From Cytophagaceae bacterium (lineage in GTDB: Bacteria; Bacteroidota; Bacteroidia; Cytophagales; Flexibacteraceae), in NCBI GenBank assembly GCA_027487695.1, contig JAIYDB010000039.1, forward strand, positions 1 through 64,000: a stretch of 64,000 bases of DNA, in the 5' to 3' direction. Each line of letters opens with the position of its first letter. The stretch's first letter is position 1. This document shows positions 12,301-64,000 of this stretch, piece after piece. The notes beneath the pieces are model-generated. The model was not told the origin of the DNA. It made no database searches and saw only the letters and a program-made list of their open reading frames with translations. The translations under genes and the position numbers were made by a program.

Positions 12301-15300
12301 TATTTCTACTTCGTAGAAGTTTTCTGTAAAATCGGTACCGAAACGTATGAATGCAGAAACTTCATTATCCTTTGTTCTTGGATCTGAGGTATAGGCTGAA
12401 ATGTAAGCCCTTATGCGTTTATAGTTCAAGAAATCTAAACGGGTATTTTTGAAAACAGCCTTACTATCAGAATCTCTAAGTCTATCCACACACAAGCTTA
12501 ACGACTGCTCGTTAAGTCTACGGTTTACGCCGCTGGTAACATCTCTATCTCTTTGAACTCCAGAAGGAACTGAGTAAGGGACTTTGTTTTCAGCAACTTG
12601 ACCGTTTTCTTCAATATTGGCTGTACCTACAACAAGGGTAGCATCGTCTTGATCAATTAAGCCTGCCTTTGGCGGAGTTAATGGCTTAGGATATGGCCTC
12701 CAAGTACTTGCCACCATTTGGAACTGCACCATACGTAAAGCTACAGGCACTTCAAATCCTGAAACAGTAGCACGCATAAAACGCATACTCTTAAAATCAG
12801 AGATGGTTCCTGTACGTCCCGCAAAGTTAGGGTGGTTCAAATCACGAATAGGAATACGGAATAAGTACCAAGCCGCTCTATTATTATCAGGCTGTATTTT
12901 ATCTACAATATAGTTTCTGCCTGTTTGGAATTCTTCAGGTGTTATTCTAATTCTATAACTATAATATTGGTCTGAATTGGAAACTGTATTATCTCCATTC
13001 AAATCCTCATTATCTGGAGTTTGCGTTCCAGAAGCGGTGAACAATGAATTACCTGTGGCAACTGGCGAGTTGCCTTGCATATTGTTGAAGAACTTATAAC
13101 GGTCAAGAATCTTAGCTCCTTCGGTTTTGCTATCCCAATCGCCACCTAAATAGTATTGGAAGTTATCTGCTGCAGGATCTGCTAGAATTTCCTGATATAC
13201 ATCCGGACTAACTTTGCTTTGGACTTGTTGCAAAAACCTTCCATTCAAATCATTATTGCTTAGGAATTGTCGCTCACCTTCATCGTCTAAGCCATCTAAA
13301 CCAACATCTTGGGCAGTTCTGGCATCAGCAGTATTGCCGAATGCATTGGTTATGTGGGGAGCCTTGGTTACCCTTCCCCATCGAGTAGTATCGGTACGCA
13401 CTAATTGCTGTCCTGGTGTAGGCAACCCATTTTCGAAGGCTTGCAAGTTATCTTCAAGTGCATCTTCAGTAATGGTACCTAAATCAAAAGTCAACTCCCC
13501 TCTACGTCTATTACCATCTGTATTATCCCCTACTCTACCTACTTCGCCATTAACAAAAGGATCCATCATCCAGAATTCCACGTATTCAATGTTCGCAGCA
13601 TCAAAATCGGTATTGGTTGTAATCGGGCGCATTACTGAACCAAAGTTATTTCTTGGGTTTGGCAATGTACCATCAGGATTTAGGTTTGGATTGTAGTTAT
13701 ACATCCCTCTTTCAGAAGGATAATAAGCTAAATCGAAAGTTTGCTCTGGTAGGTTAACCGCAGAAGCGTCTCTATTCGGAAATACTTCGTTAAAAGGAAC
13801 AACCCTTTGGTATTGGTTGGCTAAATCGTCTGAATTAATATTAGTAGGACGGGCAGCGCCACTGCTTCTGTAGAAAATATTATCTATACTATACCAAGCT
13901 AGTTTTGCCCTACGGTGGTTTAATTCAATAGGATTGGTAATTCCTTGCCTAAACCTTACGGGTGTTGATCCATACTTCCAAGATGTAATTTGCCTGCCCA
14001 AGTCAGTAGCAGTCCTAACCGATTCAAAATCATCGATGTAACTGATACCAGCACCAGATTTATCAACAAACCTATTACTACCTGGCATCATACGGGCATA
14101 TTCTCCTGTTGCTTGGATAGATGAACTTTCTTTAGTGCTATACAATGGTAGCTTGTCAAGAATTTTCGTAAGCAGTCGGCTTTCCTTTCTATAGTTTACA
14201 TCTAGACCCCAAAGTACGTTAGTTGCGGGCTCTTCGCCCATTTGGGTTCTCCTAATTAGCGGGGTTTCATTTAGGTATAAAATAGTACCACCAAAACTTA
14301 TGTCTCTGTTCAGCACATAATCTAACCTAGAACCCATAAAGGTTCTGCGTTGGAAACTGAATAAATCGGCCTGTTCATACCGAATATCAATATCCTTGCC
14401 ACTATTCAAAATACCTTGGTCAATAATACGGACACGCCCCAAAGAGTAATCGACCGTAAAGTGGGTATTTTCAATCAATAACTCACCTCCCGCAAATGCC
14501 TGCACACTACCAGGGGCAATGTTTATCCCGGGAAGGGTAATTTCACTACCTCCTGCACTTTGTATTTTCCCCTTAATAAAGAATTTGTTTTTATTGGCAG
14601 CCTGCAAAGCATCTTGCTGGGTTGACCTATACAGTTCAAAGAATACGTATTTATTAATCAGGTTTTGTTCTGTATTAGCATTGAACTGGCGCTGTAAGTG
14701 TGTACCAAACGGTTCAAGCACCGGGAAAACTAATCTACCATTTCTCGCATCAATAGTAATACCATCAACAAAATCGAACAAACCATCAGGACCACGTTCG
14801 CCTGCTTGGTTTATTTGGTCAACCTTAAATACTTCTACTAATTGGCGGTCGCGGATGTTTACGCCTTGCCTTAAAACAGGGTTATCTACACCAGAACTAT
14901 CGTCCCTATAAATAACAGTCATGCTAAAGCCAGTCTTATCTATTTGGCTCGCTCCTAAAGAATAGATATTCTTCATTTGCAAATTCCAAGTAGGTAGGCG
15001 GGTATTCAAAACTGCAGGACGTAGTAACTTTAAGAATATAACATCATCAACCCCACGGTTACTTACATCGTTTTGTAATTCTCCTACTTGGTAAGTGCGG
15101 CCATTAAAAGTATATTGAAAAGCAACACCAAGCACTTCATCAAAATTCAAAGGCGTATTTAATGAAATGTAACCAAGCTGTTCGTGAAAGGCAAAATCCT
15201 TATTTGGTTCTAACCTTCTGGCACTTCTAATTACTTCAAAATTGGTGCTTTGTACATAATTAAGTGGCTGGGCTAATAGTTTATCCCTCACCTGTTCGGC

Positions 15301-23744: not shown

Positions 23745-25085
23745 TTACTCGGAAGGGAATAAAGGTAAATCAGACGACTCGCCTTTTAAAGCTAGTTTGA
23801 ATGCCGCTAAGGTTCTGCTTCTTGCAAAGTTATGGTCTACAATTGGTTGTGGATATTTATTAGTTCCAAATTCAGGTACCCACTGTTTTACATAAGCAAA
23901 GCCTGGATCAAATTTTTCCGCTTGAGAGGTTGGATTAAATATCCTAAAATATGGAGCAGCATCGGCACCGCCACCAGCCGCCCATTGCCAACCACCAATA
24001 TTTGCAGCCATATCATAGTCTAACAACTTAGCCGCAAACCAAGCTTCGCCCCAACGCCAATCAATCAATAAGTGCTTCGTTAGAAAGCTAGCAACCACCA
24101 TACGTACTCTATTATGCATAAAGCCAGTAGCAGCAAGTTCTCTCATACCAGCATCAACTAAAGGATAGCCTGTGCGACCTTCTTTCCAGGCATCAAAATC
24201 AGCTTCACTATTACGCCAAGCCATTCTATCGTATTCTGACTTTAAACTTTGCTTGGCAGTTTGTGGAAAATGCCAAAGCACTGCATGGTAAAAATCGCGC
24301 CAAATAAGCTCGTTTACGAAAGTATCTGAAACAGAAAATGCCTGCTTTACCAATTGCCTCACACTCACAGTTCCAAAACGCAAATGAACCCCAATACGTG
24401 ATGTACCTGCCACACTAGGGAAGTTTCTGTGCTCTTCGTAGTTCTTGATTAAAGTATTACTAACTGTTGATTTTGGAAAAGGGGAACTTGTATGATTGAA
24501 ACCCATTGAAGCCAAACTTGGTATTTCAATTACCGATTGTTTGAATAGGTTTCCTAACATATTTTCTGAAGGACGTTCAGATAAATGGTTTTCTGTCAAT
24601 AGTTTACGCCATTTCTTACTGAATGGAGTAAATACAGTATAGGGCTTACCCGCATCAGACATCACTTCTTCTTTAGCAAAGATTACGTGATCTTTAAAGC
24701 TATGAAAGCCTATGTTCTTTGTTGCCAAATCTGAAGCTATTACAGTATCTCGTTCACGAGCATAAGGCTCGTAATCTTCGTTGGTATAAACAGCTTTAAC
24801 ATTATACTTATCAGTGTAATAGGCAAAAGCCTCTTGTGGCGTACCATAGAAAACATCTAAGGTGCTACCTGCTTCTACAAAGGCAGTTTGCATTGCACCT
24901 AATGCCTCATAAATGAAGGTTACCCGTCTATCGTTCTTGTCTTCCAGCTTATCTAGTATAGCCCTATCAAATACAAAAACAGGCACCACAGGAGTACCGC
25001 TATTTAAGGCATTAAAAAAGGCAGTATTATCTGCAATGCGCAAATCTCTGCGGAACCAAGACAAGACAACTTCAGGCTTATTCAT
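23745..25085 (-). CDS. phr: Deoxyribodipyrimidine photolyase / cryptochrome
   Basis: This 446-residue protein matches class I CPD photolyases/cryptochromes. It opens with VVLSWFRRDLRIADN (the Rossmann antenna domain) and includes GTSRIGVHLRFGTVSVRQ. The FAD-binding part has FVNELIWRDFYHAVLWHFP, WKEGRTGYPLVDAGMREL, GFMHNRVRMVVASFL and DYDMAANIGGWQWAAGGGADAAP. Photolyases use blue light to split cyclobutane pyrimidine dimers. The WRDFY, HNRxRM and MAANIGGWQW motifs are those of repair-active members rather than signalling cryptochromes, but that is not decisive. A light-using lifestyle fits the rhodopsin at the window end. Confidence 0.93.
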   Translation of the reverse strand: MNKPEVVLSWFRRDLRIADNTAFFNALNSGTPVVPVFVFDRAILDKLEDKNDRRVTFIYEALGAMQTAFVEAGSTLDVFYGTPQEAFAYYTDKYNVKAVYTNEDYEPYARERDTVIASDLATKNIGFHSFKDHVIFAKEEVMSDAGKPYTVFTPFSKKWRKLLTENHLSERPSENMLGNLFKQSVIEIPSLASMGFNHTSSPFPKSTVSNTLIKNYEEHRNFPSVAGTSRIGVHLRFGTVSVRQLVKQAFSVSDTFVNELIWRDFYHAVLWHFPQTAKQSLKSEYDRMAWRNSEADFDAWKEGRTGYPLVDAGMRELAATGFMHNRVRMVVASFLTKHLLIDWRWGEAWFAAKLLDYDMAANIGGWQWAAGGGADAAPYFRIFNPTSQAEKFDPGFAYVKQWVPEFGTNKYPQPIVDHNFARSRTLAAFKLALKGESSDLPLFPSE

Positions 25086-47296: not shown

Positions 47297-47300
47297 TGCA

Positions 47301-63242: not shown

Positions 63243-63315
63243 GGAGACGTAGCTCAGTTGGTAGAGCAAAGGACTGAAAATCCTTGTGTCGATGGTTCGA
63301 TTCCATTCGTCTCCA
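63243..63315 (+). tRNA. tRNA-Phe (anticodon GAA)
   Basis: A 73-nt cloverleaf. The acceptor GGAGACG pairs with CGTCTCC, D-arm GCTC...GAGC, anticodon stem AAGGA/TCCTT with loop CTGAAAA (anticodon GAA), T-arm GATGG TTCGATT CCATT. The discriminator base is A at 63315. CCA is not encoded. Confidence 0.97.
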
Positions 63316-63317
63316 CA

Positions 63318-63346
63318 AAAACCCCGATGAGCTTCATCGGGGTTTT
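63318..63346 (+). terminator. Terminator of tRNA-Phe
   Basis: AAAACCCCGATGA (63318-63330), loop GCT, TCATCGGGGTTTT (63334-63346). It begins three bases after the tRNA. Confidence 0.92.
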
Positions 63347-63422
63347 GTGTTTTTGGGGGTGGGAGGTGATGAAGAATAATAGTTAAACAGGTTAAAACCA
63401 ATTGCAAGTAATACTATAGCTT

Positions 63423-63483
63423 TTTCCACGTCTCGGAAATGTACAGCTACGCCTTCATTTCCTAAGAGGTGGAACCAGTGGGA
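63423..63483 (-). repeat. Solo hairpin of the palindromic element (G), inverted orientation
   Basis: On the minus strand it reads CCCACTGGTTCCACCTCTTAGG, then GAAATGAAGGCGTAGCTGTACATTTCCGAGACGTGG. That is hairpin 1 of the element with its left CCCACTGG end, but neither spacer nor hairpin 2. It lies between tRNA-Phe and the rhodopsin gene. Confidence 0.85.
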
Positions 63484-63855
63484 GTGAGCGGAAATCTTCA
63501 ATGGATTTAGTCGTTAAAATCAGGAGGTAAGCTAATGCTGCATAGTATGGATGAGCCATTTGTCAGTACCCAAAATTTCTGGTCTTCGCTATTAGTTTTG
63601 TTTAATGAAGGTTAGCAAATGGTAAGTGCTAAAGAAAAATTTTAGCTTGTAAACCAAACCTTTAAACAAGGTTTATTGCCACTACAAGGCGCTTTTTGCC
63701 AATGGTTCTTCTGTTTTGTTTAATTTTTTTAAAATTTTATTAAACAAAAAAAACTCTTTGTAGTAGTATATGTATTGTGGAGGTAAAACCATGTAAAAAA
63801 AGCGGAGAAACCGAAAATCCTTAAGAGTAGGAATAACCAAAATAACCCAAAGAAT
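63484..63855. other. Upstream region of the rhodopsin gene
   Basis: About 370 bp without a convincing gene. It holds a perfect 11-bp inverted repeat (TTTTGTTTAAT at 63714-63724, ATTAAACAAAA at 63739-63749) with a 14-nt AT-only loop, and a smaller one (AAACC at 63655-63659, GGTTT at 63670-63674). A 26-codon frame at 63535-63615 follows an AGGAGG but has no other support. No clean TTTG/TAnnTTTG promoter pair was found. Confidence 0.5.
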
Positions 63856-64000
63856 ATGGAGCATTTAAAAATTGCCAGTGACAACTACGTCGCATTTACC
63901 TTCTTTATTGGGACTATGGCCATGATGGCCGCGTCTGTATTCTTCTTTTTTGAGCTTAGTAATACCTCACCTAAATGGAGAACCTCCGTTTTAGTTTCAG
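63856..64000 (+). CDS. Proteorhodopsin-like microbial rhodopsin (N-terminus only)
   Basis: Only 48 codons are in the window. They read EHLKIASDNYVAFTFF, then IGTMAMMAASVFFFFELSN and KWRTSVLVS. This matches helix A and the A-B loop of Bacteroidota proteorhodopsins, whose typical sequence is DYVGFTFFVGxMAMMAAxxFFF...KWRTSVLVSG. It lacks the cleavable signal peptide present in several such proteins. These proteins bind retinal and pump ions in light. The retinal Schiff-base lysine and the ion-specificity residues of helices C and G are outside the window, so the ion (H+, Na+ or Cl-) cannot be told. Confidence 0.8.
   Translation, partial: MEHLKIASDNYVAFTFFIGTMAMMAASVFFFFELSNTSPKWRTSVLVS

Follow-up and report, generated by a model that had tools for sequence, protein, structure and literature searches.

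A conserved inverted-repeat operator suggests co-control of a Bacteroidota proteorhodopsin and carotenoid synthesis by a CarH-like regulator

Light-responsive regulons of the CarH/LitR type can include an extracytoplasmic function (ECF) sigma factor, as in the LitR-LitS system of Streptomyces. The CarH proteins are defined by two motifs, Wx9EH and ExHx2Gx41SxV/Tx22-27GG, of which the former caps the adenosyl group and is absent from the B12-independent CarA, and their known operators are tandem 11-bp direct repeats with the consensus nAnnTnnACAn (PMC8156234). The control of proteorhodopsin expression in Bacteroidota, on the other hand, has been said to need elucidation, and in Dokdonia PRO95 the expression was reported to be constitutive (PMC3587595). 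In our literature search we found no report tying CarH/LitR to proteorhodopsin regulation or to rhodopsins of Bacteroidota, which is weak evidence given that few subscription journals were covered. The proton pump, the retinal-forming blh and the CarH-type carotenoid regulation considered here are all of known kinds; it is the control of the pump that is unusual.

The window, i.e., the whole stretch of DNA analysed, comprises bases 1-64000 of contig C99 (71,168 bases) in a 2.89-Mb genome of 129 contigs and 96% completeness. At its right edge, on the plus strand, an intact proteorhodopsin gene begins (63856..64000 within the window); it continues to C99:64587 and encodes 243 amino acids. The earlier note, made from the window alone, had likened the 48 visible residues to helix A of proteorhodopsins, and indeed the frame is open over 63856-63999 and this fragment by itself matches solved proteorhodopsins at E=4e-14; its Pfam match is weak (15.3 bits, under the cut-off). 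The note had also named the helix C motif and the retinal lysine of helix G as the residues to look for past position 64000, and an early frameshift or a missing lysine as outcomes against a proteorhodopsin-type pump. The open reading frame runs uninterrupted past 64000 to its end, helix C (RYVD80WILT84VPLM88CVE91) carries the DTE set as D80/T84/E91, and K223 occupies the retinal site in DAINK223IGFG, so that all of these residues are present, neither adverse outcome was found and the assignment stands. Consistent with this, the full-length protein, which also carries H58 and D219, matches PF01036 (Bac_rhodopsin) with 143.1 bits over residues 13-233, and its closest solved chains, 9jov and 9jou, are named 'Proteorhodopsin' (E=5e-89). 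M88 lies at the green-tuning position, where GPR has Leu105, and according to the tuning rule a Met at this position marks the green type; all 81 rhodopsin loci compared share both this Met and the D/T/E set. By its sequence, the protein is thus predicted to belong to the Bacteroidota clade of proteorhodopsins and to use light to pump protons outward, with absorption in the green. Gly135 aligns with Phe152 of GPR, at a position which we take to be equivalent to Gly156 of xanthorhodopsin, and the same Gly is found in 9jov and in the other matched loci. In xanthorhodopsins, Gly156 contributes to the carotenoid fenestration (PMC13093654). Gly135 might therefore open a similar fenestration in this rhodopsin.

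Upstream of the gene, the inverted repeat at 63714-63749 that had been suggested as a possible control site is real, with perfect 11-bp arms (TTTTGTTTAAT and ATTAAACAAAA) around a 14-nt spacer. Its core, TGTTTAA-N16-TTAAACA (63717..63746), hereafter the operator, ends 109 bp 5' of the rhodopsin start codon and occurs once in the window, where shuffled sequences predict 0.04 occurrences. Across the genome, a scan with spacers of 2-24 nt returned 8 sites, 4 of them with a spacer of exactly 16 nt, and none for the reversed pattern. With N16 fixed, the 2.89 Mb hold 4 perfect and 0 one-mismatch sites, and two-mismatch sites are at about background level (45 versus 41 in the control). One perfect copy is that of the rhodopsin gene. 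The other three stand before a PF04240 (CruF-like) carotenoid gene with a MerR gene behind it, before an ECF sigma factor gene, and before a DUF4397 gene that has a lipoprotein gene in divergent orientation beside it. A match with an N17 spacer in a MarR region on C23 lies inside a coding sequence and was taken as chance.

The operator recurs before related rhodopsins. We scanned 80 homologous rhodopsin loci (proteins 85-95% identical, mostly from Bacteroidota MAGs) along with that of the window, and within 200 bp upstream of the genes the 16-nt spacing yielded 14 perfect, 8 one-mismatch and 11 two-mismatch sites, compared with 0, 0 and 4 for the reversed control; other spacers gave 0 perfect and at most 3 one-mismatch sites. 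The motif stands before 22/79 homologous rhodopsin genes (control, 0), and a recognisable operator is absent at over half of the homologous loci. The 16-nt spacer sequences vary from locus to locus, and shared ancestry of the stretch is therefore not enough to explain the conservation. Elsewhere in the 1.13 Mb of rhodopsin loci, only 2 further sites with up to one mismatch were found. A match at ileS in L167 is within the coding sequence and is regarded as chance. One genome (G016) has two rhodopsin genes (L047 and L066), of which only L066 has a perfect operator.

The same sequence marks a wider set of genes. The 14 genomes with an operator at or beside the rhodopsin gene contain 1-5 perfect motifs each (control, 0-1), and the sites away from rhodopsin are mostly at ECF sigma factor genes, often adjoining or divergent from a MerR gene; in five of the 14, the ECF gene is followed by crtI and crtB, and other sites lie near photolyase, GTP-cyclohydrolase or DUF2805 genes. 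In 148 genomes of the order, surveyed without selection, there were 176 operator sites against 22 for the control (totals summed over the per-genome table). Among 30 of these sites, inspected at one per genome and with one locus counted as both MerR and ECF, 16 front an ECF sigma factor homologous to that of the present genome (44-70% identity) and 4 front rhodopsins just 52-57% identical to the present one, the others including 3 MerR, 3 DUF4397, 2 fasciclin and 2 photolyase-cluster genes. In total, 29/30 sites are at these gene classes and one (L234) has no explanation. The recurrence of DUF4397 also accounts for the fourth site of the present genome. Secreted DUF4397 or fasciclin-domain proteins are recurrent under the rhodopsin/ECF operator (L213, L214, L220, L223 and L227). 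Collectively, these comparisons place the rhodopsin gene within a regulon and strongly support the view that its promoter carries the operator of a light or photo-oxidative regulon common across Bacteroidota; that the operator and the regulon exist we regard as close to certain. The suggestion of a control site is accordingly strongly supported by a motif that is conserved, rare in the genome and located before rhodopsin and carotenoid-regulator genes.

A second element, a DUF805 RNA (RF03081, a cis-regulatory family; 63772..63837, plus strand), lies between the operator and the rhodopsin start codon. Its score in the window is marginal (51.3 bits against a gathering threshold of 51.1), the RNA scores 52.0-76.8 bits in 9/20 homologous rhodopsin loci, and the core GAGTA[AG]G is present in 52/81 rhodopsin leaders, the first hairpin being poorly aligned in a MAFFT alignment of the leaders. 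Loci with the operator immediately before the start codon are devoid of the RNA. The frequency of this core could be read to mean that the DUF805 leader alone matters, with the rhodopsin being constitutive, as in the precedent of Dokdonia PRO95 (PMC3587595), and the palindrome an incidental product of AT-rich sequence, since AT-rich leaders yield palindromes by chance. Chance is, however, excluded by the gene specificity of the sites, by their constant 16-nt spacing and by the counts in the controls (0 versus 14 and 22 versus 176), and we consider this reading hardly credible. Another copy of the DUF805 RNA in the same genome precedes a lipoprotein gene, so the element is not rhodopsin-specific. 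DUF805 RNAs were seen 5' of small lipoprotein or secreted-protein genes in L210/L130 (G000:C54:6303-6372), L128, L136 and L141, three of them clustered in G001:C89; their targets may hint at the function. A literature search covering few subscription journals found no description of this RNA.

The position of the operator bears on the direction of control. Its distance to the rhodopsin start codon ranges from 6 to 119 bp across loci, and six loci have a -7 box of the Bacteroidota type (TA[TC]ATTTG) 27-29 nt after it; overall, such boxes were found in 8/44 loci, with 1.3 expected from shuffles. In those six loci, the operator would be just 5' of the -33 element, a position that an activator can occupy. 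Nevertheless, in several loci 6-20 nt separate the operator from the start codon. This better fits a block of transcription, and because of these very near sites we infer that the control is repressive.

The regulator most closely tied to these sites is the MerR protein encoded behind the second operator (L019:11272-12159; 295 amino acids; PF13411, 56.1 bits; B12-binding_2, PF02607, 34.9 bits). It is the only CarH/LitR-like MerR protein of the genome, its closest PDB relatives are CarH structures (3whp and 5c8d, E about 1e-18), and in most related genomes examined its gene adjoins the CruF-like carotenoid gene. The Wx9EH motif (WQTGSINPAQEH) and the lower-axial-ligand His are both kept in 30/30 aligned homologues. 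The Rossmann motif reads ExHxxS for ExHxxG, with a Gly-to-Ser change, and its distal part is degenerate; the protein scores 96.8 bits against the NCBIfam CarH equivalog model, with a cut-off of 400. The tandem 11-bp direct repeats of CarH operators were not found here, the operator being an inverted repeat with N16, although its half-site TTAAACA agrees with the consensus of CarH-contacted bases at T, A, C and A. Given the inverted operator, the partial second motif and the low equivalog score, we file the protein as CarH-like rather than as CarH. No link was visible between the recognition helix of the MerR proteins and the presence of an operator.

Two features of this protein leave room for a regulon that is real but governed by a MerR acting independently of B12, be it CarA-like, responsive to redox or photo-oxidative stress, or an activator, with singlet oxygen or another cue as the signal. 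The degenerate Rossmann motif and the score far under the equivalog cut-off are in line with this, as are the photolyase-cluster and fasciclin genes in the regulon, the activator-like placement upstream of the -33 element and the precedent of CarA, a protein of this kind that does not need B12. The Wx9EH motif, which CarA lacks, is nevertheless invariant among the aligned homologues, and the start-proximal operators suit a repressor better; we judge a B12-independent MerR unlikely, if not negligibly so. The palindrome could also be bound by a different regulator, with the MerR gene a mere neighbour in the regulon. An N16 palindrome is unlike known CarH operators, MerR clusters of other genera in the family have no perfect operator near them, and 2/14 operator-bearing genomes, both MAGs that may be incomplete, have no MerR match. 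On the other side, MerR is, besides ECF, the only regulator that repeatedly adjoins the sites, operators lie directly before MerR genes in L231, L232 and L235, palindromes are not the kind of site that sigma factors bind, and the half-sites match the CarH contacts. A different binder hence appears improbable, and the CarH-like MerR protein is very likely the one that recognises the operator.

For the pump to function, the cell needs retinal. The expectation that genes for its synthesis would follow or lie near the rhodopsin gene did not hold, as the rest of contig C99 carries neither blh nor crt genes, which are found on other contigs instead. For blh in particular, the search of the remainder of C99 came back empty, and contig C120 holds two tandem copies (L035:12332-13282 and 13495-14448) that are 60% identical and score 124 and 129 bits with TIGR03753; a 461-aa protein without a Pfam match precedes the pair. 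In addition, crtI, crtB and a lycopene cyclase-domain gene are consecutive on C38 (the cyclase is above the cut-off for TIGR03462, with a PF05834-type match under its cut-off), and crtD is on C89. With two blh copies, crtI, crtB and a cyclase in the genome, the cell can probably make retinal, in spite of having no neighbouring cluster. No operator was found at the crtI-crtB cluster of this genome, and control of crtI-crtB by the ECF sigma factor is consequently an assumption.

The rhodopsin unit sits downstream of tRNA-Phe(GAA) (63243..63316, plus strand), behind which a terminator hairpin is located (63318..63357, plus strand). A 98% identical copy of this 40-nt terminator lies 3' of the rhodopsin gene (C99:64609-64648; L009:2609-2648), these being the two copies genome-wide, and the near-identical terminators bracketing the unit could be the mark of an insertion beside tRNA-Phe. 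We rejected a mobile tandem-terminator cassette, as the flanking 40-nt repeats occur only in this genome among the compared loci; L062 has one flanking repeat, unrelated to the 40-nt terminator. Between the tRNA and the operator there is a dispersed, hairpin-forming REP-like repeat (63424..63485) with about 25 copies in the genome. The repeat measures 59 bp, folds as a hairpin (z = -3.6) and has further copies in the window at 47299, 47438, 47568, 48122, 50176 and 57159; we do not think that it is part of the rhodopsin control system. Downstream of the rhodopsin on C99 are genes for an S46 peptidase, a TetR regulator and TolC/RND proteins. The photolyase at 23745-25085, from which a sunlit habitat had been deduced, is real and encoded on the minus strand. 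It was dismissed as a member of the regulon, the window scan having revealed no operator nearby. A sunlit habitat is plausible, and the closest named relatives include MAGs from ponds and other freshwater.

We propose that proteorhodopsin and carotenoid synthesis are under the joint control of a CarH-like repressor, with B12 and light as the signal, a model that we find likely on the genomic evidence. In the dark, the MerR protein with bound adenosylcobalamin would sit on the operator and keep the rhodopsin gene, its own operon with the carotenoid gene and the dedicated ECF sigma factor from being transcribed. On illumination, cleavage of the cobalamin bond would free the DNA of the repressor, so that the pump would be switched on together with the ECF-driven carotenoid genes, which presumably provide the retinal precursor. 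The DUF805 RNA in the leader might add a second, post-transcriptional control. To the B12-dependent derepression of the regulon by light, taken on its own, we give slightly better than an even chance. The evidence seems to us evenly balanced for the picture as a whole, in which a B12 light sensor directly targets a Bacteroidota proteorhodopsin, a phylum-shared operator couples the pump, the carotenoids that feed retinal (and perhaps serve as antenna) and the ECF sigma factor, and the DUF805 RNA forms a second layer. With a 30-bp operator, a regulator and a sigma factor now named, the question becomes testable in culture, and the operator and regulator set predicts which Bacteroidota genomes induce phototrophy by light and which do not. 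If the B12 reading is true, light energy capture in lakes would be tied to the supply of vitamin B12.

Finally, the components of the locus can be set beside their described counterparts. The rhodopsin resembles Bacteroidota proteorhodopsin (9jov/9jou) and GPR (2l6x) in its fold, DTE set, His-Asp counterion pair, Lys and the Met at the equivalent of position 105; nothing fundamental differs, and GPR has Phe152 where Gly135 is found here. It shares the Gly at the fenestration position with xanthorhodopsin and Kin4B8, the rhodopsins with a carotenoid antenna, but by sequence it is a proteorhodopsin, and an antenna role is putative. The leader agrees with Rfam RF03081 in sequence and two-hairpin structure, while the gene that it leads is that of a proteorhodopsin. 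With the CarH/LitR regulons of Myxococcus, Thermus and Bacillus megaterium, the system has in common the Wx9EH motif and the axial His, a MerR protein with a B12-binding domain encoded beside carotenoid genes, and an ECF sigma factor; it departs from them in the inclusion of proteorhodopsin in the regulon, the N16 palindrome and the less canonical Rossmann motif.
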